A stretch of DNA of 64,000 bases from Rodentibacter heidelbergensis (lineage in GTDB: Bacteria > Pseudomonadota > Gammaproteobacteria > Enterobacterales > Pasteurellaceae). The stretch lies in contig NZ_MLHH01000012.1 of assembly GCF_002000125.1 (NCBI RefSeq), positions 1 to 64,000 of the forward strand. Reading direction: 5' to 3'. Below the pieces are notes generated by a model. It made no database searches, had not been told where the DNA came from, and saw only the letters and a program-made list of their open reading frames with translations. The position numbers were made by a program, and so were the translations under genes. Positions 264 through 17,509 of this stretch are shown here, piece after piece; the stretch's first letter is position 1, and each line of letters opens with the position of its first letter.

Positions 264-3128
264 TTATAAAGCTTCTATGGCTTTATACTGCTCACGGATT
301 TTTTCTAATCCCGATTGGTATTCAGCCATTTTCTCACGTTCTTTGGCGATTACTGCTTCCGGTGCTTTGGCAACAAAGGCTTCGTTGCTAAGTTTACCTT
401 CGATACGTTTGACTTCCTGTTGATATTTTTCCATCTCTTTGGTCAAACGGGCAAGCTCGGTTTCTTTGTTGATAAAACCCGCCATTGGCACAAGAAGTTC
501 CGTATTGCCTACCAATTTAGCCACGGCAAGCGGGGCATTTTCCCCTTCCGTTAACACGCGTGCCTCACCCAATTTTGCCATTGCACATAAAAGTGCGGTC
601 TGTTTTTCAAGAATTTTTTGTTCTGTCGCATCAATGTTACGGAACAATAAATCTAATCCTTTACTTGGGGCGATATTACATTCTGCCCGAATGTTACGCA
701 CAGCCACAATCACTTCTTTTAACCAATTAATTTCACGCTCGGCTTCATCATCAAAGGCAGTTTCATCCACCGTTGGGAACGGTTGCAACATAATGCTATC
801 CGCTTCAATGCCGACAAAGCCTTTTACTTTTTGCCAAATTTCTTCCGTGATAAACGGAATTAACGGGTGTGCTAAACGCAATAATTGTTCTAACACACGC
901 ACAAGAGTTTGGCTTGCCGCACGAATTTGCGCCGGTGTACCCATTGCAAATACTGGTTTGGTTAACTCCAAATACCAGTCGCAGAATTGGTTCCAGGTAA
1001 ATTCGTAAATCGCATTAGCTGCTAAGTCAAAACGATATTGGCTTAATGCTTCACGGAAATCCCCCACAGTGCGGTTAAAACAAGATTCAATCCAACGATC
1101 TGCCACGGAAAATTCAATTTCCCCTTCGCTTAAATCCAATTTTTCATTGGTTAACACAAAACGGCTGGCATTCCACAGTTTATTACAGAAATTGCGATAC
1201 CCTTCAAGGCGTTTCATATCCCAGTTAATATCACGCCCATTGCTGGCAAGGGCTGCCAAGGTAAAACGTAACGCATCCGTACCATGTGCGCTAATGCCTT
1301 CGGCAAACTCTTTACGGGTTGCTTTGGCAATTTTTTCCGCAAGTTGTGGTTGCATCATATTACCGGTGCGTTTTTCCAGTAAATCTTCAAGGCTGATACC
1401 GTCAATCATATCAATCGGGTCAAGCACATTGCCTTTCGATTTGGACATTTTCTGTCCTTGCTCATCACGGATCAAGCCCGTAACGTAAACCGTTTTAAAC
1501 GGTACTTGCGGTTTACCATTTTCATCTTTGATGAAGTGCATGGTGAACATAATCATCCGAGCCACCCAGAAGAAAATGATGTCAAATCCGGTGATTAATA
1601 CATCTGTCGGGTGGAACATTTTGAGTTCTTTGGTTTGTTCCGGCCAACCCAGTGTAGAGAACGTCCACAAGCCGGATGAGAACCAAGTGTCTAACACATC
1701 TTCATCTTGTTTTAAGGCTAAATCCGCAGGCAAATTGTATTTTGTGCGAACCTCTTGCTCGTTGCGTGCAACGTAGATATTGCCCTCAGCATCATACCAT
1801 GCCGGAATACGGTGTCCCCACCAAAGTTGGCGTGAAATACACCAATCTTGAATGTCCCGCATCCAAGAGAAATACAGGTTTTCATACTGTTTCGGTACAA
1901 ATTGGATTTCACCGTCTTCTACCGCTTTCGTTGCCACTTCAGCGAGCGGTTTAACGCTCACATACCATTGATCTGTAAGCATTGGCTCAATCGGCACACC
2001 GCCACGGTCGCCATAAGGCACTTTGAGATCGTGCGGTTTAATCTCTTCCAACAGCCCCATTGCCTCAAAATCCGCAACGATTTTCTTACGGGCTACAAAA
2101 CGCTCTAAGCCACGGTAATCTTCAGGAATAAGTGCGGTGTAATTTTCCAAAGGTTTATTGTTGTAGCCGATGACTTCCGCTTCGTCACGAATATCCGCAT
2201 TGAGCGTCAACACATTCACCAACGGTAAATTATGGCGTTTCCCCACTTCATAGTCGTTAAAATCGTGAGCAGGGGTGATTTTTACCACACCGGTACCAAA
2301 TTCACGATCCACATACTCATCCGCCACAATCGGAATTTCACGATTAGCGAGTGGGAGCATCACGGTTTTACCAATTAATGATTGGTAACGTTCATCTTCC
2401 GGATGAACTGCCACCGCCGTATCACCCAACATGGTTTCAGGACGGGTGGTCGCCACCACCAAATAATCTTTGCCATCTGCTGTTTTTACGCCATTGGCGA
2501 GTGGATAACGGAAATGCCAAAGCGATCCTTTGCTTTCTTTGTTTTCCACTTCCAGATCAGAAATCGCTGTATGCAATTTAGGATCCCAATTCACCAAGCG
2601 TTTACCACGATAAATCAAGCCTTCTTCGTGCAGACGAACGAACACTTCTTTTACTGCATTGGATAGCCCCTCGTCCATGGTGAAACGTTCACGTTCCCAG
2701 TCGATTGAGTTCCCCAAACGGCGCATTTGTTGGCTAATTGTGCCACCTGAATAAGCTTTCCAATCCCAAATTTTGTTGATAAAGGCTTCACGCCCATAAT
2801 CGTGACGGTTTTTGCCCTCTTCCGCCGCAATTTTACGTTCCACCACCATTTGGGTGGCGATGCCTGCGTGATCGGTGCCCGCTTGCCATAGGGTGTTATG
2901 CCCTTCCATACGATGAAAACGAATCAGCGTATCCATCAGGGTTTGCTGGAACGCATGCCCCATATGCAAACTCCCCGTCACATTCGGTGGCGGAATGGCA
3001 ATACAATAACTCGGTACATTCGGATTTTCACTCGGTTTAAAATACCCTTTCTCTTCCCAGTGTTGATAAAGGGCTTGTTCTACCGCAGACGGATTAAAAC
3101 GGTCTGCCATTTGGAGGTTTTGTGTCAT
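264..3128 (-). CDS. valS: Valine--tRNA ligase
   Basis: Class I aminoacyl-tRNA synthetase that charges tRNA-Val in the cytoplasm and edits mischarged threonine. At 954 residues it matches the usual length (E. coli about 951). The HIGH-type motif is HMGH at residues 55-58 within [15 protein letters not shown], and the KMSKS loop appears as KMSKSKGNV in the second half. The C-terminal 70 residues are charged and helical, matching the coiled-coil tRNA-binding arm. The start at 3128 has a GAGA ribosome site; the internal Met7 does not. It lies at the end of the holC-side cluster, in the usual holC-valS neighbourhood. Confidence 0.98.
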
Positions 3129-3219
3129 TGTTAATCTCTTTTTGTATAACGTGGACTTTCTTAGTCCACTATAATTACTTAATGATGAAGCTAGTTTTTC
3201 TCTACTCCATATAGGAATA

Positions 3220-3480
3220 TCATTTAGATTTATAAAAGAAAAACACTCCTGTTAAAAGAATTAATAAGGCAAAAATTAAGGGACCAAACAATACTGCCTG
3301 TTCGCCACCTAACTGAAACAGAAATTTAGCTGTAAAAGTTAAAGAATCAAAATTCATTTCTCCGTCAGTATTTTGAACCTTGCTATAATCAAATATTCCT
3401 AGGAAAGCTATTAGAGGAAAGGCTAAAAAACAAATCTTAGCTTGTTTAGCATATTTTTCTTTTTTATCTTGATTTTTCAT
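3220..3480 (-). CDS. Small predicted inner-membrane protein, unknown function
   Basis: An 86-residue protein with a basic N-terminus ([15 protein letters not shown]) and two hydrophobic segments, about residues 18-32 and 60-82, ending in KSK. I do not recognise a family. The upstream in-frame ATG at 3495 would overlap yqfB, but the ATG at 3480 has a GGGGAT ribosome site 7 bases before it and leaves an 11-base gap, so I prefer 3480. It probably shares a transcript with yqfB. Membrane location is inferred from hydrophobicity alone. Confidence 0.65.
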
Positions 3481-3491
3481 AAGATCCCCAG

Positions 3492-3803
3492 TCAATTTTT
3501 AGTAAATGCAATTAAATAGAACAACTCTTCATTCGGATAAATCTCTCTAATCACTTTTTTCAACTCAGCCAACGTCATATTTTCTTGCTCAGCATGTTGT
3601 TCCGTTAATTCATCTAAGGTAATAGGCGAAACACTTAATACTTCAATCGTGCAGAAATATTGATTATCCTCGAAGCGCCCAACACGCAAAACATCACCCG
3701 CTTTAAAATGACTTTCGGATTTATCCCGAATGGTGATGGTTTTCAGCCCTGCGAGAATATCGGCTTCAAAGCGTTGGTAGAAAGTAATATCGTTTGGTGG
3801 CAT
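3492..3803 (-). CDS. yqfB: ASCH-domain protein, YqfB-type N4-acetylcytidine amidohydrolase
   Basis: A 103-residue single ASCH-domain protein. The family member E. coli YqfB hydrolyses N4-acetylcytidine to cytidine and acetate. Typical features are the N-terminal [20 protein letters not shown] segment, with the lysine and threonine of the proposed catalytic set, then [12 protein letters not shown] and a C-terminal EELFYLIAF strand. The start has an AAGGAA ribosome site. It is followed at once by the small membrane protein and is probably cotranscribed with it. Function is by family only. Confidence 0.85.
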
Positions 3804-3889
3804 TTTGTTCCTTAAAAGAGCGGTTAAATTTTAGGGATTTTTTGTAACCCGTGAGTTAACCAATTTTTCTAAAACATTAGAAAACAGCT

Positions 3890-4057
3890 TTATTTCGCAT
3901 AACCTACAATTTTTTCTTTTCCATCAGGATAATGTTCAACAATAGTCCCATTCCGCTTTTGAAAGGTCACGACTTCGTGTTTCATTTTCTCTTTCATCCA
4001 TACTGAGAAAAGAAGTTTAAGCTGTCTCTGTTGCGCTAAAATTTCTTCTTTAGTCAT
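3890..4057 (-). CDS. Short conserved-looking ORF, 55 residues
   Basis: A 55-codon minus-strand frame, MTKEEILAQQRQLKLLFSV... ending in DGKEKIVGYAK, with an AAGGAA ribosome site 8 bases before the ATG. It begins 11 bases after the stop of the upstream lipoprotein gene. The first 30 residues look helical and charged; the rest (VTFQKRNGTIVEHYPDGKE) looks like a small beta hairpin. No family recognised. The tight spacing and good ribosome site argue for a real gene rather than chance. Confidence 0.6.
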   Translation of the reverse strand: MTKEEILAQQRQLKLLFSVWMKEKMKHEVVTFQKRNGTIVEHYPDGKEKIVGYAK

Positions 4058-4068
4058 CTGACTATTCC

Positions 4069-4581
4069 TTATTGATTAACCCGAATCTCCCCTTTCACAC
4101 GTTTAATTTCGGATAATAAACGGCGTTCTTCTTGGCGGCAAAAACTATTCTCACCTAATTTAGCCGCCTCTGCAGTGCAACGGATCTGTTGATATTGGGA
4201 TTCAAGCACTTTCAATAAGGCTTTTTGTTCTTTTAAGTAGCGATTTGTGGCCGTTTTACGCACTTTTTCTGAATGACGTACCACTTTTTTTTCTGCCATG
4301 TCATCTTTCTTACCATCAGAATCAGCGGTGGTTCCCATTTCTTCAACAGTTTTTCCCACAGCTTCAACCTTATCAGTCTTTTCCACCGCTTCACCTTTCG
4401 CTGCTGGGGATGGGATTTCCTCTTTAACAGCTTCTGACGTTACCGATACCGCTTCTGTTTTATTTTCAGAAAGTGCGGTCATTTTTTCAGGTGTTTTTGC
4501 CTCTTGGTTATCACAAGCCGCTAAAGTTAAAACACTGCTACCTATTAAAAGAGAGAAAGCAAATTTCATTGTCAATTTCAT
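4069..4581 (-). CDS. Predicted lipoprotein with C-terminal helical region
   Basis: A 170-residue protein with a lipoprotein signal peptide (MKLTMKFAFSLLIGSSVLTLAAC; lipobox LAAC), a low-complexity stretch rich in Glu, Lys, Thr and Ala, and a charged helical C-terminus (residues about 105-170) with two cysteines. A linker, unknown function. An ATG five codons upstream (4596) exists, but its own GGAG forms the ribosome site for the ATG at 4581, so 4581 is the better start. An uptake signal near 4470 encodes part of the linker (MTALSEN), suggesting that region is structurally tolerant. It lies between holC and the 55-residue ORF. Confidence 0.75.
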   Translation of the reverse strand: MKLTMKFAFSLLIGSSVLTLAACDNQEAKTPEKMTALSENKTEAVSVTSEAVKEEIPSPAAKGEAVEKTDKVEAVGKTVEEMGTTADSDGKKDDMAEKKVVRHSEKVRKTATNRYLKEQKALLKVLESQYQQIRCTAEAAKLGENSFCRQEERRLLSEIKRVKGEIRVNQ

Positions 4582-4611
4582 ATTAGTTAGCTCCATAAGG
4601 TTTATCTTAAA

Positions 4612-5043
4612 TTAGGTATTTTCCGTGGAAAGTTGCCAGCCTTGCATACGAAGTTGTTTATAACGTTCTCGTGCTTGCGCTTTAGGCGTTTCTTCCACCG
4701 GTACAAAATCAATCAGCTGAGTAAAACTATGGCTAAATTCCGGTACGGTTTGTTGCAAGTTAATCAGCAAATCCCGTTGTTGGGCATTGCGTTTTCCTTT
4801 CCATGAAATTTCAATCGGAGTGGGATATTGGGTCGCTTCACCAGATAAATTATGGGGTACAAATTCATCGGGTTCCCGTTGCCAAAGTGCTTCATCAATA
4901 TCGAGGGCTTGCTGCTCTGTTTCACAAGCAATCAGCACTCGCTTACCCAAGCGCCAAGCGGAAGCCGCCAAGTTACACGCAAGCTGTTCAACACTCAGCG
5001 GGGTTTGTTCCGTTAAAATGTAAAACTGCGCATTTTTTACCAT
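4612..5043 (-). CDS. holC: DNA polymerase III subunit chi
   Basis: The chi subunit of the DNA polymerase III clamp-loader complex, which binds psi and single-strand-binding protein. The 143 residues show the characteristic pattern FYIL, the QLAC segment, GKRVLIACETEQQALDIDEALW, FVPHNLSGE and the C-terminal ARERYKQLRMQGW. I use the GTA-adjacent ATG at 5043 because a GAG ribosome site lies 7 bases upstream; the ATG at 5049 would overlap that site. Its location upstream of valS is conserved in many gammaproteobacteria. Confidence 0.93.
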   Translation of the reverse strand: MVKNAQFYILTEQTPLSVEQLACNLAASAWRLGKRVLIACETEQQALDIDEALWQREPDEFVPHNLSGEATQYPTPIEISWKGKRNAQQRDLLINLQQTVPEFSHSFTQLIDFVPVEETPKAQARERYKQLRMQGWQLSTENT

Positions 5044-5166
5044 TTTCATCTCAATTTTACCAAGCTGTAAACTGGCGAATTTTACCGAAAAATCAGGGAA
5101 AAATAAATGGTTAAATCATGCTTTGAGCCAATAGAAAAAACGCTCATTAAACCGACCGCACTTTTT

Positions 5167-5182
5167 TATGATCTAAATCACA
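5167..5182 (+). promoter_or_regulatory. CRP-like (possibly FNR-like) site upstream of fumC
   Basis: TATGA-TCTAAA-TCACA matches the CRP pattern TGTGA-N6-TCACA at 9 of 10 positions. The core TGATCTAAATCA also resembles an FNR box. It lies about 100 bases before the fumC start, and either regulator would make sense for a fumarase. The assignment is by pattern only. Confidence 0.45.
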
Positions 5183-5281
5183 AAACTGATTTTTCGCTTT
5201 TTTGTTACATTCCATTCATACCTCTGAAGTGTTAAAATCAGGTCGTTTTTTCGTTTCATCTTATTGAATAGGAGTATCATA

Positions 5282-6676
5282 ATGGCATTTCGCATTGAAA
5301 AAGACACCATGGGTGAAGTTCAAGTTCCTGCCGATAAATATTGGGCTGCACAAACTGAACGCTCACGCAATAATTTTAAAATTGGGCCTGAAGCCTCCAT
5401 GCCGGCTGAAATTATTGAAGCCTTTGGTTATTTGAAAAAAGCCGCTGCCTTTGCCAACCATGATTTAGGTGTGTTGGCCGCTGAAAAACGTGATTTAATC
5501 GCCCAAGCCTGCGATGAAATTTTAGCGAATAAATTAGATGATCAGTTCCCGCTTGTGATTTGGCAAACCGGCTCCGGCACGCAATCTAATATGAATGTGA
5601 ATGAAGTGGTGGCAAATCGTGCTCATGTGTTAAATGGCGGAAAATTAGGTGAAAAATCCATTATTCACCCAAACGATGATGTTAATAAATCCCAGTCTTC
5701 TAATGATACTTTCCCAACGGCAATGCACATTGCTGCCTATAAAAAAGTGGTGGAACACACTATTCCTTGTGTTGAACGCTTACAAAAAACCTTTGCCGCA
5801 AAATCTGAAGCGTTCAAAGATGTGGTGAAAATTGGTCGTACCCATTTAATGGATGCAACCCCCCTCACCTTAGGTCAAGAATTTTCAGCCTATGCCACAC
5901 AATTGGATTTCGGCTTGCGTGCATTAAAAAATACCCTTCCTCATTTGAGCCAATTAGCCCTTGGCGGTACAGCAGTCGGAACAGGATTAAACACACCAAA
6001 AGGCTATGATGTGAAGGTAGCCGATTACATTGCCAAATTTACCGGACTTCCATTTGTTACCGCTGATAATAAATTTGAAGCATTAGCGGCGCATGATGCC
6101 ATTGTGGAAACTCACGGTGCATTACGCCAACTTGCAATGAGTTTGTTCAAAATCGCAAACGACATTCGCTTATTAGCCTCCGGCCCTCGTTCCGGTATCG
6201 GTGAAATTTTAATTCCTGAAAATGAACCGGGTTCTTCCATTATGCCGGGTAAAGTGAACCCAACTCAATGTGAAGCCATGACAATGGTTTGTGCACAAGT
6301 GTTCGGTAACGATACCACCATTGCCTTTGTCGGCTCACAAGGTCATTTTCAATTAAATGTATTTAATCCGGTGATGATTGCCAATTTCCTCCAATCGGCA
6401 CAATTATTAGGTGATGCTTGTGTTTCCTTTGATGAACATTGTGCGGTAGGCATTGAGCCGAATTACCCACGCATTAAACAACAGCTTGAAAATTCATTAA
6501 TGTTAGTCACCGCACTGAATACGCATATCGGTTATGAAAATGCGGCGAAAATTGCCAAAACCGCCCATAAAAACGGCACAACCTTGCGTGAAGAGGCCAT
6601 TAATCTTGGCTTAGTATCAGCGGAAGATTTTGACAAATGGGTGCGCCCTGAAGATATGGTGGGTAGTTTAAAATAA
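5282..6676 (+). CDS. fumC: Fumarate hydratase class II
   Basis: Oxygen-stable, iron-independent fumarase interconverting fumarate and malate in the TCA cycle and reductive branch. It has 464 residues, as usual for FumC. Visible signatures are [27 protein letters not shown], the [10 protein letters not shown] segment and the superfamily signature [13 protein letters not shown]. The frame extends six codons upstream, but the ATG at 5282 follows an AGGAG ribosome site. The gene is monocistronic, with a CRP-like site upstream and a hairpin terminator downstream. Confidence 0.98.
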
Positions 6677-6698
6677 ACTTAGCCATAAAATAACGGTC

Positions 6699-6726
6699 AA
6701 AGGCGGGGATACTCTCGCCTTTTTTT
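6699..6726 (+). terminator. Rho-independent terminator after fumC
   Basis: Arms AGGCGGG and CTCGCCT (7 bp with one G-T pair) around a 6-base loop, followed by a run of T. It lies 23 bases after the fumC stop. Confidence 0.85.
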
Positions 6727-6818
6727 ATCGTGAATTAAACGGGCAACGCGCTACATAGAGGATAAACCGTACAGCAAGATAGCTAACACCATATCATTGA
6801 AATTTTAATTCGCTCTAT

Positions 6819-6848
6819 TTGAGATTTTAAAGAGGCTTTTGTTATAAT
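6819..6848 (+). promoter_or_regulatory. Sigma-70 promoter for the exported protein gene
   Basis: TTGAGA (6819-6824) and a perfect TATAAT (6843-6848) are separated by 18 bases. The expected transcription start is about 25 bases before the ATG at 6879. Confidence 0.6.
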
Positions 6849-6878
6849 CTGCGCCTTACTGAACCGTGAAAGAACAAT

Positions 6879-7481
6879 ATGAAAATGAAATCCCTTTTCG
6901 TGACAATTTTAGCTTTTTTTTCAACCGCACTTTCTGCCCATTGGCAACAGGTCGGTCATGCTGAATATACTTGGGGGCCTTTCCATGTATATAGTGTCGG
7001 ACTTTTTTCCGAAAACGGTTCATACCAAGAAAATCAATCTCCATTGATGTTCTCTATCAAATATGAAAAACCTATTGAAGGCAAAAACTTTGCGATCACC
7101 CTCATCAAAGAAATGGAAGCCCAGCAACTCAGTGCCGATGACACCAATGCTTGGTTGAAAAAAATGCAGGAAATTTTTCCTGATTTTTCACCCAATGACA
7201 TTTTAAATTTCGTGGCATTAGAAAATAAAGGCTATTTTATTGCCAACGATACCGTGCTAAATCATGAATTTGATGCCAAATTTACTCAAGCCTTTATTGA
7301 TATTTGGCTTTCTCCAAAAAGCAGCTTTGTGAAATTACAGCCTCAATTATTGGGTAAAGAAAAGGGCGAGCAAAATCCTCAAGAATTTCAATATCAGCCG
7401 GCAAGCGAACCTTTTGATGAAGAAAATACCATGCCGGAGTTACCACCAAACTACGATCCACAAAATAATTTAAACGGATAA
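6879..7481 (+). CDS. Predicted exported protein, possibly chalcone isomerase-like fold
   Basis: A 200-residue protein with a cleavable signal peptide (MKMKSLFVTILAFFSTALSA, cleavage probably before HWQQVG). The mature part begins VGHAEYTWGPFHVYSVGLFSENGSY, includes a YEKPIEGKNFAITLIKEM segment, and ends in an acidic, proline-rich tail. The order of strands (W-G-F-x-V-Y-x-x-G-L-F) and the later ANDTVL segment recall chalcone-isomerase-like periplasmic proteins, but this is a fold guess. It stands alone between two terminators. Function unknown. Confidence 0.7.
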   Translation: MKMKSLFVTILAFFSTALSAHWQQVGHAEYTWGPFHVYSVGLFSENGSYQENQSPLMFSIKYEKPIEGKNFAITLIKEMEAQQLSADDTNAWLKKMQEIFPDFSPNDILNFVALENKGYFIANDTVLNHEFDAKFTQAFIDIWLSPKSSFVKLQPQLLGKEKGEQNPQEFQYQPASEPFDEENTMPELPPNYDPQNNLNG

Positions 7482-7486
7482 AACCA

Positions 7487-7515
7487 AAAGGCGAACAGAT
7501 TGTCTGTTCGCCTTT
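7487..7515. terminator. Bidirectional terminator between the exported protein gene and rimK
   Basis: A perfect 13-bp stem (AAAGGCGAACAGA and its complement) with a 3-base loop, flanked by A and T runs. It lies between two convergent genes and can serve both. Confidence 0.85.
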
Positions 7516-7518
7516 CTC

Positions 7519-8415
7519 TTATGATTGCACCATTTTTTCCAAATAGAGCATGATCTGCAATGCAATATCCACTCCACTGGTTTTCTCGATCATTTCCAAT
7601 CCCGGACTGGCATTAACTTCCAACACCAATAAACCGTCCTTAGAGCGAATAAGATCCACGCCCGAAACCACAAGCCCCAAGGCTTTTGTGGCGCTAACCG
7701 CCAACTGTTTTTCTTCCTCCGTTAAAAGAACAGGTTGTGCACTGCCACCACGATGAAAATTCGCCCTAAACTCCCCTGCTTGCCCGATACGCTGCATACT
7801 GGAGATAACCTTATCCCCCACCACAAAACACCGAATATCTTCGCCTGCGGCTTCTGCCACAAAATCTTGTAGCAATACCGACACATTCGCTTGTTTTAGC
7901 GTTTCCAAAATACTAACGGCACTTTGTGACTTTTCCGCCAACATCACGCCAATCCCCTGAGATCCCTTTAAGGTTTTGATAATTAAAGGACAATCCATCG
8001 CTTCCACCACGGCTTTAGACTCACTTTCGATGCCTGACAATCGGCTATTCGGTACGGCAATGCCATGACTTCGCAAAACTTGTAAACTTTCCCATTTATC
8101 CCGCGCCATTAAAAATGCCTTTTCCTTATTCAAGCAATAGACCCCTTTGGCTTGAAAGTGGCGTAACACCGCACAGCCCATTTTGGTGCTTGCTGTGCCG
8201 AAACGGGGTAATACGGCATCATAATCAGGCAAAAGATAAACCTCTCCTTCCTTTGGTTGATAATAAATCTCAAAGTGCGGTGTATTTTCTGTGAGTTTTA
8301 GAATACAACGATTTGGATCTAAAATATCCATTTCATGCCCACATTGTGTTGCAGCTTCTTTTAAACGTTGACAACTGTATAAACGAGGCTCACGGCAAAG
8401 CATCAATAATTTCAT
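7519..8415 (-). CDS. rimK: RimK-family ATP-grasp glutamate ligase
   Basis: A 298-residue ATP-grasp enzyme of the RimK family, which adds glutamate residues to the C-terminus of ribosomal protein S6 and can make poly-glutamate. Visible elements are the N-terminal [21 protein letters not shown], the ATP-binding loop [41 protein letters not shown], and the metal-binding end [18 protein letters not shown]. It is divergent from the adjacent glutaredoxin gene, a neighbourhood also seen in enterobacteria. Confidence 0.92.
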
Positions 8416-8531
8416 CGAAAATTTCCAATCAAAAACGGCAATGCATTATACCAATCATAGCAATCCTGAAAAACGGTTTATGGTCTATCAAAAAAAGAGT
8501 AGAATGGCGAAAATTTAACATAGAGGAGAAA

Positions 8532-8798
8532 ATGATGTTTGTTGAGATTTTTGGCCGCTCCGGTTGCCCTTTTTGTATCCGTGCAAAAAACCTTGCTGAA
8601 AAATTAAAAGATGAATTGGCTGATTTTGATTATCGCTATGTGGATATCAATGAAGAAGGTATGACCAAAGACGATTTATCCAAACTAGTCGGAAAAGAGG
8701 TGAAAACCGTCCCACAAATTTTCATTGATAAAAAACCGATTGGCGGTTGCACAGATTTTGAAGCCTTAATGAAAGCACAATTCGGTATCACTTCTTAA
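8532..8798 (+). CDS. grxA: Glutaredoxin (GrxA type)
   Basis: An 88-residue dithiol glutaredoxin using glutathione to reduce protein disulfides such as ribonucleotide reductase. The redox motif is CPFC (residues about 12-15) in GRSGCPFCIRAKN, with the cis-proline TVPQIF and the C-terminal GGCTDFEAL segment. The frame is open far upstream, but ATGATG at 8532-8537 follows a strong GAGGAG ribosome site, fixing the start. It is divergent from rimK. Confidence 0.95.
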   Translation: MMFVEIFGRSGCPFCIRAKNLAEKLKDELADFDYRYVDINEEGMTKDDLSKLVGKEVKTVPQIFIDKKPIGGCTDFEALMKAQFGITS

Positions 8799-8859
8799 TT
8801 CCCAACCTAATTTAAACTGCCGTAAAGTGCGGTCAATTTTTGAAAAGTTTACAAAATTT

Positions 8860-8898
8860 AAAGGCTAAGCCCTGTACTCACAGTACTTGGCCTTTTTA
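8860..8898 (+). terminator. Terminator after grxA
   Basis: An imperfect hairpin with AAAGGC and GCCTTTTT outer arms and an inner TACT/AGTA pairing, ending in a T run. An uptake signal lies just upstream at about 8824. The rest of the 325-base grxA-icd gap holds the icd promoter region. Confidence 0.65.
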
Positions 8899-9031
8899 TT
8901 TTCACTTGAAGACGCAACATCACAACCGTTCTCTTTCGTTTAAAAACGCATTTCCATGAAATCGACCTTTCATCTTCGAAATCCTATTCAACCCTAAATT
9001 GTTTTTTCCTTATTATATTTTTGTAAAGATA

Positions 9032-9061
9032 TTGTTATTTGTTGTGTATAAAGATTATACT
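9032..9061 (+). promoter_or_regulatory. Candidate promoter of the icd-acnB-gltA cluster
   Basis: TTGTTA (9032-9037) and TATACT (9056-9061) are separated by 18 bases. The overlapping GTTATTTGTTGT stretch resembles an ArcA-type repeated half-site, which would fit a TCA operon, but the match is loose. Confidence 0.45.
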
Positions 9062-9069
9062 AGCTCCCA

Positions 9070-9091
9070 GTTGAGGAAAATTTTTCTCAAC
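9070..9091 (+). promoter_or_regulatory. 22-base inverted repeat in the icd leader
   Basis: Arms GTTGAG and CTCAAC enclose a near-self-complementary A/T core, giving an 11-bp stem with one mismatch. It falls at the predicted start of the transcript and about 30 bases before the icd ATG, so it could be an operator or a 5' stem that affects mRNA stability. Confidence 0.4.
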
Positions 9092-9123
9092 CCATCCCTA
9101 ACTCAAATCTGTGAGGTGAAACT

Positions 9124-10371
9124 ATGCAACACAAAGTAGCAACAGCTAACGGTCAAGCAATTACACTCAATCACGATGGCTCCCTCAATGTCCCAAACAA
9201 TCCTGTTATTCCCTTTATCGAAGGTGATGGTATCGGCGTAGATGTGACACCCGCAATGCGTTTGGTTATTGATGCTGCCGTATCGAAAGCCTATGGTACG
9301 ACACGAAAAATTGATTGGTTAGAAATTTATGCCGGTGAAAAAGCCAATCAAATTTACGGTGAAAACACCTGGTTGCCGGCAGAAACATTAAAGGCAATCA
9401 AACAATATCATATTGCAATTAAAGGCCCATTGATGACACCGGTGGGCGGCGGCATTCGTTCATTAAATGTCACCATGCGACAAGAATTGGATTTGTATAA
9501 CTGTTTACGTCCTATCCGTTATTATGATGGCACACCAAGCCCGGTCAAACACCCTGAATTCGTTGATATGGTTATTTTCCGTGAAAACTCGGAAGATATT
9601 TATGCCGGCGTGGAATGGCAAGCAGGATCAGCAGAAGCCGATAAAGTGATGGCATTTTTACGCCATGAAATGGGAGTGAAAAAAATTCGTTTCACCGAGC
9701 AATGCGGTATTGGCATTAAACCGGTCTCAAAAGAGGGGACACAACGCCTCGTACGTTCTGCATTGCAATATGTAATTGATAATGATCGCCGCTCACTCAC
9801 TTTGGTACATAAAGGCAATATTATGAAATTTACCGAGGGGGCATTTAAAGAATGGGGTTATCAAGTTGCACAAGAATTGGGTGCTGAAATCATTGATAAC
9901 GGCCCATGGCACAAATTGAAAAATCCCAAAACCGGACGGGAAATTATCATAAAAGACTGCATTGCTGATGCATTTTTACAAGAGGTACTGCTCCACCCTA
10001 AAGATTACGATGTGATTGCGACCTTAAATCTGAACGGTGACTACATCTCCGATGCCTTAGCAGCCCAAGTTGGCGGTATCGGTATTGCACCCGGTGCGAA
10101 TATTGGGGTAGAAAGCGCTATTTTTGAAGCCACTCACGGCACCGCACCTAACATTGCAGGGCAAAATAAAGCCAATCCAAGCTCCATTATTTTGAGCGGT
10201 GAAATGATGCTACGTCATTTGGGCTGGACGGAAGCGGCCGATTTAGTGGTAAAAGGGGTGGCAAAAACCATTGCCAATAAAACCGTCACCTTGGATTTAG
10301 CCGAAACACTGGAGAATGCTAAATTGCGTTCTACTATGGAATTTGCCCAAGACATTGTGAGTAATATGTAA
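9124..10371 (+). CDS. icd: Isocitrate dehydrogenase, probably NAD-dependent
   Basis: Converts isocitrate to 2-oxoglutarate and CO2. It has 415 residues, aligning with E. coli Icd almost without gaps ([21 protein letters not shown] with the regulatory serine, [20 protein letters not shown]). The residues that read the NADP 2'-phosphate in E. coli are changed: K344 to N, Y345 to I, V351 to A, Y391 to L, R395 to E ([12 protein letters not shown] and TLDLAETL). Ile345 and Ala351 are the residues found in NAD-using homologues and in the engineered NAD-specific E. coli enzyme, so I infer NAD use. It is first in a run with acnB and gltA; GTGAGGTG ribosome site. Confidence 0.95.
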
Positions 10372-10468
10372 ATCATTAACTTTTATCGCTGTATTCGTTT
10401 TCCATGATAAATTCACTGAGGCTTTACTCACGACTTTCTATCCTTTTTCATTCAGACGGAGATCGCCT

Positions 10469-13072
10469 ATGTCATTTTTTACTGAATACCAAACCCATGT
10501 TAACCAACGGGCTGCTCAAGGTGTCGCCCCTCTTCCACTCAATGCCCAGCAAGTGGCAGAATTAGTCGAATTGCTAAAAAACCCACCACCTGAAAATCAA
10601 AATCTATTCGTTGAATTATTTGAAAGCCGCATTCCCACAGGCGTTGATGAAGCCGCCTATGTGAAAGCGGCTTTTTTAGCAGATTTAATTAAGGGAAACA
10701 CACAATCACCCTTGATTTCACCACAAAAAGCCGTGCAATTATTAGGTACAATGCAAGGGGGGTACAATATCGCTCCTCTCATTGATACATTGGATATTGA
10801 CGAGCTTGCACCATTAGCCGTGAAAGCTTTATCGCATACCTTATTAATGTTTGATAACTTTTATGATGTTGCGCAAAAAGCCAAACAAGGCAACGCCTAT
10901 GCCCGGCAAGTTCTACAATCTTGGGCAGATGCCGAATGGTTTTTATCCCGCCCTCAATTAGCTGAAAAATTAACCTATACCGTTTTTAAAGTTTCCGGTG
11001 AAACCAATACAGATGATCTATCACCGGCACAAGATGCTTGGTCACGTCCTGATATCCCTTTACATGCATTAGCCATGTTAAAAAACCCGAGAGAAGGGAT
11101 TGAACCGGACGAAGCCGGTGTCATTGGGCCGATGAAACAAATTGAAGCACTAAAACAAAAAGGTTTTCCATTAGTCTATGTGGGCGATGTTGTAGGAACA
11201 GGATCCTCACGCAAATCTGCCACGAATTCCGTGTTATGGCTAATGGGTGAAGATATGCCTTATATTCCCAACAAACGGACAGGTGGTGTGGTACTTGGTG
11301 GCAAAATTGCACCGATTTTCTTTAACACTATGGAAGATGCCGGCGCCCTCCCTATTGAGCTGGATGTCAGTCAATTCAATATGGGCGATGTCATTGATAT
11401 TTACCTTTATGCAGGTAAAGTGTGTAAACATAATACCGATGAAGTTCTATCAACCTTTAAACTGAAAACAGATGTATTACTTGATGAAGTGAGAGCCGGT
11501 GGTCGTATTCCCTTGATCATCGGCCGAGGCTTAACGCACAAAGCACGAGTAGCACTAGGCCTACCGGAAAGCGATGTGTTTGCCAAACCGCAAATCGCCA
11601 ATGAAAAGAATAAGGGCTTTACACTTGCTCAAAAAATCGTAGGGCGGGCCTGCGGAGTCACCGGAATTCGAGCTGGACAGTATTGCGAACCACGAATGAC
11701 CAGTGTTGGCTCACAAGATACCACAGGGCCAATGACCCGTGATGAATTAAAAGATTTAGCCTGCTTGGGTTTCTCTGCTGACTTAGTGATGCAATCATTC
11801 TGCCATACCGCAGCCTATCCCAAACCGGTCGATGTCATCACTCACCATTCCTTACCGGATTTTATTATGAATCGAGGCGGCGTTTCATTACGTCCCGGCG
11901 ATGGTGTTATCCATTCTTGGTTAAACCGTATGTTATTACCGGATACGGTCGGCACCGGCGGTGATTCCCACACTCGCTTTCCAATTGGTATCTCCTTTCC
12001 TGCCGGTTCCGGACTTGTGGCCTTTGCTGCCGCAACCGGCGTTATGCCGTTGGATATGCCTGAATCTGTCTTAATTCGCTTTAGCGGAGAAATGCAACCC
12101 GGCATTACACTACGGGATTTAGTCCATGCCATCCCTTATTATGCGATTCAACAAGGTCTTCTCACGGTAGAAAAAGCAGGCAAAAAGAATATTTTTTCCG
12201 GCAAAATCCTTGAGATTGAGGGGTTGGAACACCTAAAAGTAGAGCAAGCTTTTGAGATTTCCGATGCCTCGGCTGAACGTTCGGCGGCGGCTTGCAGCAT
12301 TAAACTCAATAAAGAACCGATCATCGAATACCTTAATTCTAATATTGTGCTACTCAAGTGGATGATCGCTGAAGGTTATGGCGATAAAACCACACTTGAA
12401 CGCCGCATTCAGGCTATGCAAGATTGGCTTGCCAATCCACAATTATTGGAGGCGGATAAGGATGCTGAATATGCGGCGGTTATTGATATTAATCTCAACG
12501 ACATCAAAGAGCCTATTGTCTGTGCCCCAAATGATCCCGATGATGCCCGCCTATTATCGGAAGTACAAGGTGATAAAGTCGATGAAGTTTTTATTGGTTC
12601 TTGTATGACCAATATCGGCCATTTCCGTGCCGCCGGCAAATTACTCAACCAACATCAAGGCATGCTCCCAACCCGTCTGTGGATTGTGCCACCCACTAAA
12701 ATGGATGCCCATCTCTTAAGTGATGAGGGATATTATAGTATTTACGGCAAGAGCGGAGCACGAATTGAAGTGCCGGGTTGTTCCCTTTGTATGGGCAATC
12801 AGGCACGAGTAGCAGATGGTGCGACCGTTGTTTCCACCTCAACCCGTAACTTCCCAAATCGAATGGGTAAAGGCGCTTTCGTTTATCTCGCCTCCGCAGA
12901 GCTTTCCGCTGTCTGTGCCTTACTAGGCCGTATTCCAACACCGGAAGAATATTTGCAATATGTGCAAAGTCTTGAAACAGACAAAGAGGATACCTATCGC
13001 TATATGAATTTCGACCAAATCAACAGCTATCTCAACAAAGCTGAGGGTTTGATTTTTCAAACAGCAGTATAA
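10469..13072 (+). CDS. acnB: Aconitate hydratase B
   Basis: A bifunctional aconitase B that interconverts citrate and isocitrate through a 4Fe-4S cluster. The 867 residues match AcnB (E. coli 865) rather than AcnA. The AcnB-specific order is seen: N-terminal helical-repeat domain, then the swivel domain with [16 protein letters not shown], then the cluster domains with [58 protein letters not shown] and the cluster cysteines of [12 protein letters not shown]. It lies 97 bases after icd and 24 before gltA, in the same direction. Confidence 0.98.
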
Positions 13073-13096
13073 CGAAAACACAAAAGGAGACTTAAT

Positions 13097-14371
13097 ATGC
13101 CAAACTTACATCCAACTTTAACTGCAGAACTTCATTTAAGTGATGGTCGTAAAATCGCCTTACCAGTTTACCAAGGTTCTTTAGGCTATGATGCAATTGG
13201 TGTAGAAAGCTTGCAAAAACAAGGTTTATTCACCTACGATCAGGGACTAACCTCCACCGCACTTTGTGAATCCAGTATTACTTACATTGACGGTGATCAA
13301 GGCACTTTATTACATCGAGGTTATCCCATCGACGAATTAGCCTTTAATAAAACCTATCTTGATACGGCATATTTATTGTTAGAGGGAGAAATACCGACAG
13401 AACAACAACTCTCTGATTTCAAAAAAGAAATTTGTTCACATTATATGGTAAACGATCAATTTACCCGCCTATTCCAAGGGTTTCGGCGAGATTCCCACCC
13501 TATGGCGGTGATGTGTGCGGCAAGTAGTGCGTTGGCCGCATTCTACAATGATGATTTCCAAGCAGACAAAGATATTGATCGCACAGCCATCCGCTTATTA
13601 GCCAAAATGCCAACCTTGGCAGCAATGTGCTACAAATATAGCATTGGCCGCCCATTTATGTATCCACAGTATCACCTCTCCTATGCGGGTAACTTCTTAT
13701 ATATGATGTTCGCCACCCCTTGTGAGCCTTATGTGGTAAATCCCGTGTTAGAACGAGCAATGGATAGAATTTTTACCCTGCATGCCGATCACGAACAAAA
13801 TGCCTCTACCTCATCCGTGCGTAGTGTTGCCTCCTCAGGTTCAAATCCCTTTGCCTGTATTGCAGCAGGCATTGCCTCTTTATGGGGTGCTGCTCATGGC
13901 GGTGCAAACGAGGCTTGCATACGAATGTTAGAAGAAATCGGTACGGTGGACCGTATTGCGGAATTTATCGCCAAAGCGAAAGATAAAAACGATCCGTTCC
14001 GCTTAATGGGGTTCGGACACCGAGTGTATAAAAACTACGATCCTCGTGCCAAAGTGATGCGTGAAACCTGCCATGAAGTGTTACAAGAGCTGGGTATCAC
14101 CACCCCATTATTAGAAGTTGCGATGGAGCTTGAACGCATTGCGCTAAGCGATCCTTATTTTATTGAACGAAAACTCTATCCAAATGTGGATTTCTATTCC
14201 GGTATTATTTTAAAAGCTATCGGTATTCCAGTGTCAATGTTCACCGTCATCTTTGCCCTAGGCAGAACTGTCGGTTGGATTGCGAACTGGAAAGAAATGA
14301 ACGAAGAACACCTAAAAATTGTCCGTCCAAGACAAATTTATACCGGTCATCAAGCGCGCCATTTAAAATAG
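13097..14371 (+). CDS. gltA: Citrate synthase, type II
   Basis: Condenses oxaloacetate and acetyl-CoA to citrate, entering the oxidative TCA branch. The 424 residues fit the hexameric, NADH-sensitive type II enzymes. Active-site regions are present: [14 protein letters not shown] with the first catalytic histidine, [17 protein letters not shown] with the second, and the aspartate of [15 protein letters not shown]. It starts 24 bases after acnB with an AGGAG site, so it is very likely cotranscribed. One uptake signal occurs in frame near 13256, and an uptake-signal pair forms the terminator. Confidence 0.98.
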
Positions 14372-14392
14372 GCAAGAAATCTTGACTCATTC

Positions 14393-14424
14393 AAAGTGCG
14401 GTTAAAATCAACCGCACTTTTTTC
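14393..14424. terminator. Uptake-signal-pair terminator between gltA and lacZ
   Basis: Two uptake signals in opposite orientation (AAAGTGCGGTT and AACCGCACTTT) pair perfectly with a short loop, followed by T. They lie between the convergent gltA and lacZ and can stop both. Confidence 0.88.
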
Positions 14425-14437
14425 CATTAAGCCTTCC

Positions 14438-17509
<3,072 letters not shown>

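Follow-up and report, generated by a model that had tools for sequence, protein, structure and literature searches.

An isocitrate dehydrogenase of Rodentibacter heidelbergensis with a remodelled cofactor pocket that probably prefers NAD, encoded in an icd-acnB-gltA cluster at a variable site

Introduction

The cofactor choice of isocitrate dehydrogenase (Icd) sets whether the oxidative branch of the citric acid cycle feeds respiration, as NADH, or biosynthesis, as NADPH. In the accessible parts of the literature Lys-Tyr-Val is the reference motif of NADP enzymes, and characterised type I NAD enzymes carry Asp-Ile-Ala, with Asp at position 344 of the E. coli numbering used throughout (PMC10380307). 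Intermediate pockets can use both cofactors, because, as far as the available text of each source goes, the Icd of Methylobacillus flagellatus, whose motif is Lys-Ile-Ala (K-I-A), is dual-specific and prefers NAD only 5-fold (PMC5397045), and an enzyme with Arg-Leu-Val has a slight, 2.3-fold preference for NADP (PMC10380307). The accessible sections of PMC10574006 describe a Pseudomonas Icd engineered to carry Asp, Ile and Ala, with Lys as a fourth change (position of 391), in which NADP activity was lost; the same source proposes that NADP use by Icd accompanies the glyoxylate bypass. NAD-preferring type I enzymes are thus already known, and a route via Asn344 rather than Asp344 appears to be the variant here.

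The Pasteurellaceae include pathogens and the icd-bearing succinate producer Mannheimia succiniciproducens, according to the available portions of PMC3091790 and PMC3096633. Titles and abstract openings, mostly of papers available without subscription, yielded no assay of any Pasteurellaceae isocitrate dehydrogenase.

The icd gene and its cofactor pocket

The window, the whole 64,000 nt stretch of DNA analysed here, contains the following gene:

9124..10371, + strand: icd, intact open reading frame encoding a type I isocitrate dehydrogenase of 415 aa with an NAD-like cofactor pocket

In a global alignment with Icd of E. coli MG1655 (NC_000913, L227), 297 of the 414 aligned positions are identical, Ser113 is common to both proteins and 12 of the 12 residues checked, which we take to be substrate, metal and catalytic residues, are conserved. 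A PDB sequence search covers the full length of the protein with E. coli Icd chains, and the full-length match and conserved catalytic residues together identify a type I (bacterial) enzyme. Whole-protein comparisons say less about the cofactor. The top PDB sequence match is the engineered NAD-specific E. coli Icd (1iso) at 680.4 bits, only a small gap above the wild type at 676.1 bits, and a predicted single-chain structure ties 1iso with the NADP wild type (1cw7) and so does not separate the types. NCBIfam labels the gene as NADP-dependent isocitrate dehydrogenase, just as had been foreseen for automatic annotation, and two NADP-Icd equivalog models are matched well above their cut-offs.

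The pocket differs from that of E. coli by R292H, K344N, Y345I, V351A, Y391L and R395E, so that none of the six residues of the NADP-type set (Arg292′, Lys344, Tyr345, Val351, Tyr391 and Arg395) is retained. Where no paper is cited, the roles given to individual pocket residues are general background. An earlier sequence-only reading had named the last five of these changes and stated that all five phosphate-binding residues were altered. The global alignment confirms both points; the sixth change, at an Arg292 presumably contributed by the partner subunit, had been overlooked. The alignment had also been described as gapless, and three single-residue gaps are in fact present (near E. coli positions 8, 16 and 250), with the pocket free of gaps. 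The codons concerned are as follows:

9994..9996, + strand: His codon at E. coli position 292 (NADP type: Arg)
10150..10152, + strand: Asn codon AAC at position 344 (AAA, Lys, in six icd-bearing congeners)
10153..10155, + strand: Ile codon at position 345 (NADP type: Tyr)
10171..10173, + strand: Ala codon at position 351 (NADP type: Val)
10291..10293, + strand: Leu codon at position 391 (NADP type: Tyr)
10303..10305, + strand: Glu codon at position 395 (NADP type: Arg)

Ile345 and Ala351 are part of the Asp-Ile-Ala motif of the NAD type, and both do occur, as had been claimed, in the engineered E. coli enzyme and, in the accessible text of PMC10380307, in characterised NAD enzymes. The Asp344 of that motif is absent and Asn stands in its place; because of Asn344, the dual-type motif Lys344-Ile345-Ala351 is likewise not found. 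None of the six pocket residues is clearly cationic, with the possible exception of His292.

Distribution of pocket signatures

A survey of 140 Pasteurellaceae genomes found type I icd in 78, of which 77 are intact and one, in G024, is broken by eight stops and was excluded. In G024 (L159, G024:C129) the citrate synthase gene is disrupted as well, being split in two, which gives the impression of a decaying branch. The remodelled pocket is present in 73 of the 77 intact Icds, and the E. coli signature RKYVYR in the other 4, which are all four genomes of genus g11. The switch had been regarded as a trait of this species; that was too narrow, since 73 of 77 carry most of the change.

All 73 NAD-like Icds have His292 and none has Tyr391. 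Position 345 is Ile in 72 and Leu in 1, position 351 is Gly in 44 and Ala in 29, and position 395 is Glu in 64, Asp in 6 and Asn in 3; the E. coli residue at 292, 345, 351, 391 or 395 occurs in none. At position 344, by contrast, Lys is kept in 62 and replaced by Asn in 8 and by Ala in 3; it is therefore no separator of the NAD-like and NADP-type sets. The motif at 344-345-351 is K-I-A or K-I-G in 61 of the 73 and K-L-A in one. The closest pair of a Lys344-keeping and a Lys344-lost Icd within one genus is 97 % identical, a natural experiment on the stepwise evolution of specificity. The icd with Leu345 (L158, G007) is long-branched and comes from a genome in which citrate synthase had no match.

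Outside the Pasteurellaceae, RKYVYR is found in 75 of the best 80 named loci, and in 34 of 42 loci sampled from the order's other families (22 best matches and 20 hand-picked from the match list). Exceptions to it include Methylophilaceae (H-K-I-A) and Ignatzschineria (Asp344, Ile345, Val351). A second remodelled pocket is seen in family f3 of the same order (L189–L194), with Thr at 344 (Lys in one), Ile at 345 (Leu in one) and Ala at 351.

The E. coli-signature set comprises 114 Icds (75 named loci, 34 other-family loci of the order, 4 from g11, and E. coli), identical at the six residues by selection. Ten alignment columns fully separate the 73 NAD-like from these 114 NADP-type Icds: T104M, I126N/S, loss of residue 250, Q288E, R292H, Y345I/L, V351G/A, Y391 to F/A/L/S/V, R395E/D/N and C405T. 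Five of the ten belong to the six pocket columns; the hypergeometric P of 1.5e-8 for this share is a guide only, the rows being related and the sets defined by pocket columns. Since the NADP-type set was picked by the six pocket residues, only the five non-pocket columns are independent of the choice of set.

These columns bear on an enzyme that still prefers NADP through other basic residues reaching the phosphate, the finding which the earlier reading had said would count against it. The equivalog matches point that way, and His292 could be cationic. However, those models score the whole protein rather than the pocket, and at the five other separating columns (in the window T104M, I126N, loss of residue 250, Q288E and C405T) no basic residue has been gained. 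A preference for NADP is thus considered very improbable.

A decaying icd whose pocket has drifted under relaxed constraint is scarcely credible. The broken genes of the relative G024 provide a precedent, but dN/dS between the window icd and those of six icd-bearing congeners is 0.036–0.053, which indicates that the gene is under purifying selection; at such a value of about 0.04, with catalytic residues kept and the same pocket positions altered in all 73 NAD-like Icds, drift explains little.

Cofactor preference

Judged from its residues, the window Icd is likely to be active and to prefer NAD over NADP. Ile345 and Ala351 would reshape the pocket for the free 2′-hydroxyl, as they do in the E. 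coli Icd engineered for NAD specificity, the acidic Glu395 would repel the NADP phosphate, and Asn344 would take away a cationic contact. Because of these three effects the enzyme would be expected to discriminate more strongly than its Lys344 relatives, and perhaps less strongly than with Asp344. Discrimination may be incomplete, since Asn344 differs from the Asp of classical NAD enzymes and NADP may still bind where that carboxylate is missing. Of the original proposal of NAD dependence, the NAD preference and the misannotation are well supported by the sequence; strict NAD specificity goes further than Asn344 here, and Lys in most relatives, allow.

A dual-specific enzyme, using NAD and NADP within a few-fold like that of M. 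flagellatus and with Asn344 of little effect, would overlap with this explanation if NAD were favoured a few-fold. The dual enzyme's motif in the accessible text of PMC5397045, K-I-A, is shared or approached by most of the family (the 61 Icds with K-I-A or K-I-G and the one with K-L-A), and His292 recurs in three Methylophilaceae rows. The window Icd, however, lacks Lys344, has Glu395 where the Methylophilaceae have Ser, and retains in His292 a sole possibly cationic residue of six. Dual specificity is therefore regarded as rather unlikely.

Metabolic setting

When the window's own genome was searched with the window Icd, only this gene and one short, 35 %-identical match were returned, the latter probably isopropylmalate dehydrogenase. 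Monomeric isocitrate dehydrogenase (IDH), isocitrate lyase and AceK had no match in this genome, and AceK was found in 0 of the 140 family genomes. Isocitrate lyase matches occur in 2 of 140, both short and both resembling PrpB. A glyoxylate bypass in two g17 genomes was considered and rejected: the one short isocitrate-lyase match tested is methylisocitrate lyase PrpB, and the other is near-identical by eye. PntB and glucose-6-phosphate dehydrogenase are each present in 139 of 140 family genomes, the window's own genome having pntB and zwf, and other NADPH routes therefore exist.

With an NAD-preferring Icd, the gltA-acnB-icd branch from citrate to oxoglutarate would yield NADH, and NADPH would come from transhydrogenase and the pentose phosphate pathway. 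It is plausible that this species obtains NADH instead of NADPH at the Icd step, yet transhydrogenase PntB and glucose-6-phosphate dehydrogenase are still encoded in its genome. The Pasteurellaceae seem to be without a glyoxylate bypass, and this may have made giving up NADP tolerable; the absence of bypass genes fits the idea put forward in the accessible part of PMC10574006, though g11 is of the NADP type without a bypass. If the preference for NAD is true, most icd-bearing Pasteurellaceae genomes carry a wrong NADP label and metabolic models would misplace NADPH.

TIGR01798 detects citrate synthase in 83 of the 140 genomes (82 above cut-off), including 76 of the 77 with intact icd, the exception being G007. 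Six genomes with gltA and no type I icd (G010, G011, G012, G039, G040 and G083) all carry monomeric IDH, so that all 82 citrate synthase genomes have an IDH gene. Four other family genomes carry both the type I and the monomeric enzyme.

The icd-acnB-gltA locus

Gene order in the window is grxA, icd, acnB, gltA, lacZ. The features around icd are as follows, the 9-mer being one that we take to be an uptake-signal-like sequence:

8532..8798, + strand: grxA, left flank of the variable site
8825..8833, + strand: 9-mer AAGTGCGGT, uptake-signal-like, directly after grxA (from alignment)
10469..13072, + strand: acnB, encoding aconitase B and second in the cluster (TIGR00117, 1564 bits)
13097..14371, + strand: gltA, encoding type I citrate synthase and third in the cluster (TIGR01798, 682 bits)
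14394..14419, no strand: inverted pair of the 9-mer, terminator-like, between gltA and lacZ (from alignment)
14438..17482, − strand: lacZ-type beta-galactosidase, bounding the variable site on the right (its model matches fall short of the curated cut-offs)
Congener loci L280–L283, L286 and L287: citDEF-citXG-citT citrate-lyase operon, as against icd-acnB-gltA, at the grxA site

Counting the window's own, 7 of 15 genomes in the genus carry the cluster. At the site beside grxA (window 8799–14437), 6 of the other 8 congeners (G117, G119, G121, G122, G125 and G127) have citD-citE-citF-citXG-citT, in which the last gene, citT, encodes a DASS-family transporter. NCBIfam models identified the cit genes of G122, and those of the other five were assigned by 74–99 % protein identity to G122. 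Five of these six congeners also show the right flank, either lacZ or the gene that follows it, and neither type I icd nor gltA was found anywhere in the six genomes. In G128 and G129 the grxA-side site was not found within the stretches examined. In the congener G120 the lacZ beside the cluster is in short pieces only (L220 3749–4266).

The cluster and cit alleles become alike, at both ends, at copies of the 9-mer. This suggests cassette exchange by transformation, with the proviso that such copies are frequent, 52 in the 64-kb window. Just as good an explanation is that a joined cluster lost one half or the other, because cit genes adjoin icd-acnB-gltA in L126 (genus g8; 1922–12738 and on), where the two stand in tandem, and in L153 (g43; 5996–13301), where citC and citD lie downstream of gltA; since these loci carry both, the cassettes are not mutually exclusive across the whole family. 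Titles and abstract openings of papers, chiefly those outside subscription, contained no report of citrate cassette exchange.

Of 68 family loci examined, 31 (among them one with a broken icd and all four from g11) have icd next to rluE as in E. coli, and the cluster arrangement is for that reason probably derived. Quick trees without bootstrap place the genus nearest g27 and g8 for acnB (support 90) and nearest g27 for gltA (87), in both cases away from its rpoB neighbours. A single clade of g1 with g22, g14 and g5 is rejected by acnB (p-AU 7e-7) and gltA (p-AU 4e-27). For Icd, the rpoB grouping of 26 rows is rejected (p 0.006) and g1 with g22 alone is not quite rejected (p 0.051). These comparisons favour lateral acquisition of the window cluster, the Icd test being weaker than those of acnB and gltA.

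Evolution of the pocket

A phylogeny across the family had been proposed as a check. In an Icd tree of 100 rows with the six pocket columns removed, for which the bootstrap has not settled, the 56 sampled NAD-like Pasteurellaceae Icds form a single branch (support 100/100), which the 3 sampled g11 Icds join as sister (98/83). In a quick rpoB tree without bootstrap the sister of g11 is g40, a genus with an NAD-like Icd, and the Icd data reject a g11 and g40 clade (p-AU 0.0004); icd adjoins rluE in both genera, as in E. coli. The NADP type of g11 may thus have been either retained or regained. The marker valS was set aside in favour of rpoB because of its mosaic look within the genus: around window 264–3128 and in relatives it seems mosaic, some congeners being 95–99 % identical and others about 80 % with shorter frames.

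By parsimony on the best Icd tree, Lys344 changed five times within the NAD-like branch, g1, g35 and g43 lying in an unresolved fork. A single clade of all eight Asn344 rows is rejected (p-AU 2e-6), a test of their union only. Within its genus Asn344 (AAC) occurs in the window genome only, the other six icd-bearing congeners having AAA. The residue patterns thus indicate that Asn344 came later in the window's line, as one of the five changes on the best tree.

A wider scenario is offered tentatively, as somewhat less probable than its alternatives combined. The rest of the pocket would have switched early, leaving Lys344 in a dual or weakly NAD-preferring enzyme; Lys344 would later have been lost repeatedly (five times on the best tree, replaced by Asn in four genera and by Ala in one), so that NAD specificity was reached without Asp344, with Glu395 repelling the phosphate. 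In the window's genus, additionally, the citrate-to-oxoglutarate branch would behave as a cassette that can be exchanged for a citrate-cleaving operon at a single chromosomal site, perhaps via natural transformation.

Comparison with known systems

The H-K-I-A Icds of the Methylophilaceae were considered as a source of the NAD-like Icd and rejected, as their branch, shared with Burkholderiales-type rows, is a distant one. The likeness is confined to the pocket: Ile and Ala at 345 and 351 are shared with the dual-specific Icd of M. flagellatus in the accessible text of PMC5397045, where its Lys344 differs from the window's Asn344, and His292 is shared with the Methylophilaceae rows L061, L074 and L082, which are related to the Methylobacillus Icd. 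This likeness is probably convergent, because these rows occupy a separate branch of the Icd tree. Compared with the characterised type I NAD enzymes, represented by Acidithiobacillus thiooxidans NAD-Icd (PDB 2d4v), the window has Asn-Ile-Ala in place of Asp-Ile-Ala, as far as the available part of PMC10380307 describes them.

E. coli NADP Icd has the same fold, the 297/414 identity, the 12 checked residues and Ser113 in common with the window Icd. The two differ at all six residues on the 2′-phosphate side, and in AceK, which none of the 140 Pasteurellaceae genomes was found to encode. The engineered NAD-specific E. coli Icd (1iso) has the same Ile345 and Ala351, and K344, Y391 and R395 are replaced in both; the replacements themselves differ, being Asp344, Lys391 and Ser395, with Arg292 kept, in the engineered enzyme and Asn344, Leu391, Glu395 and His292 in the window.
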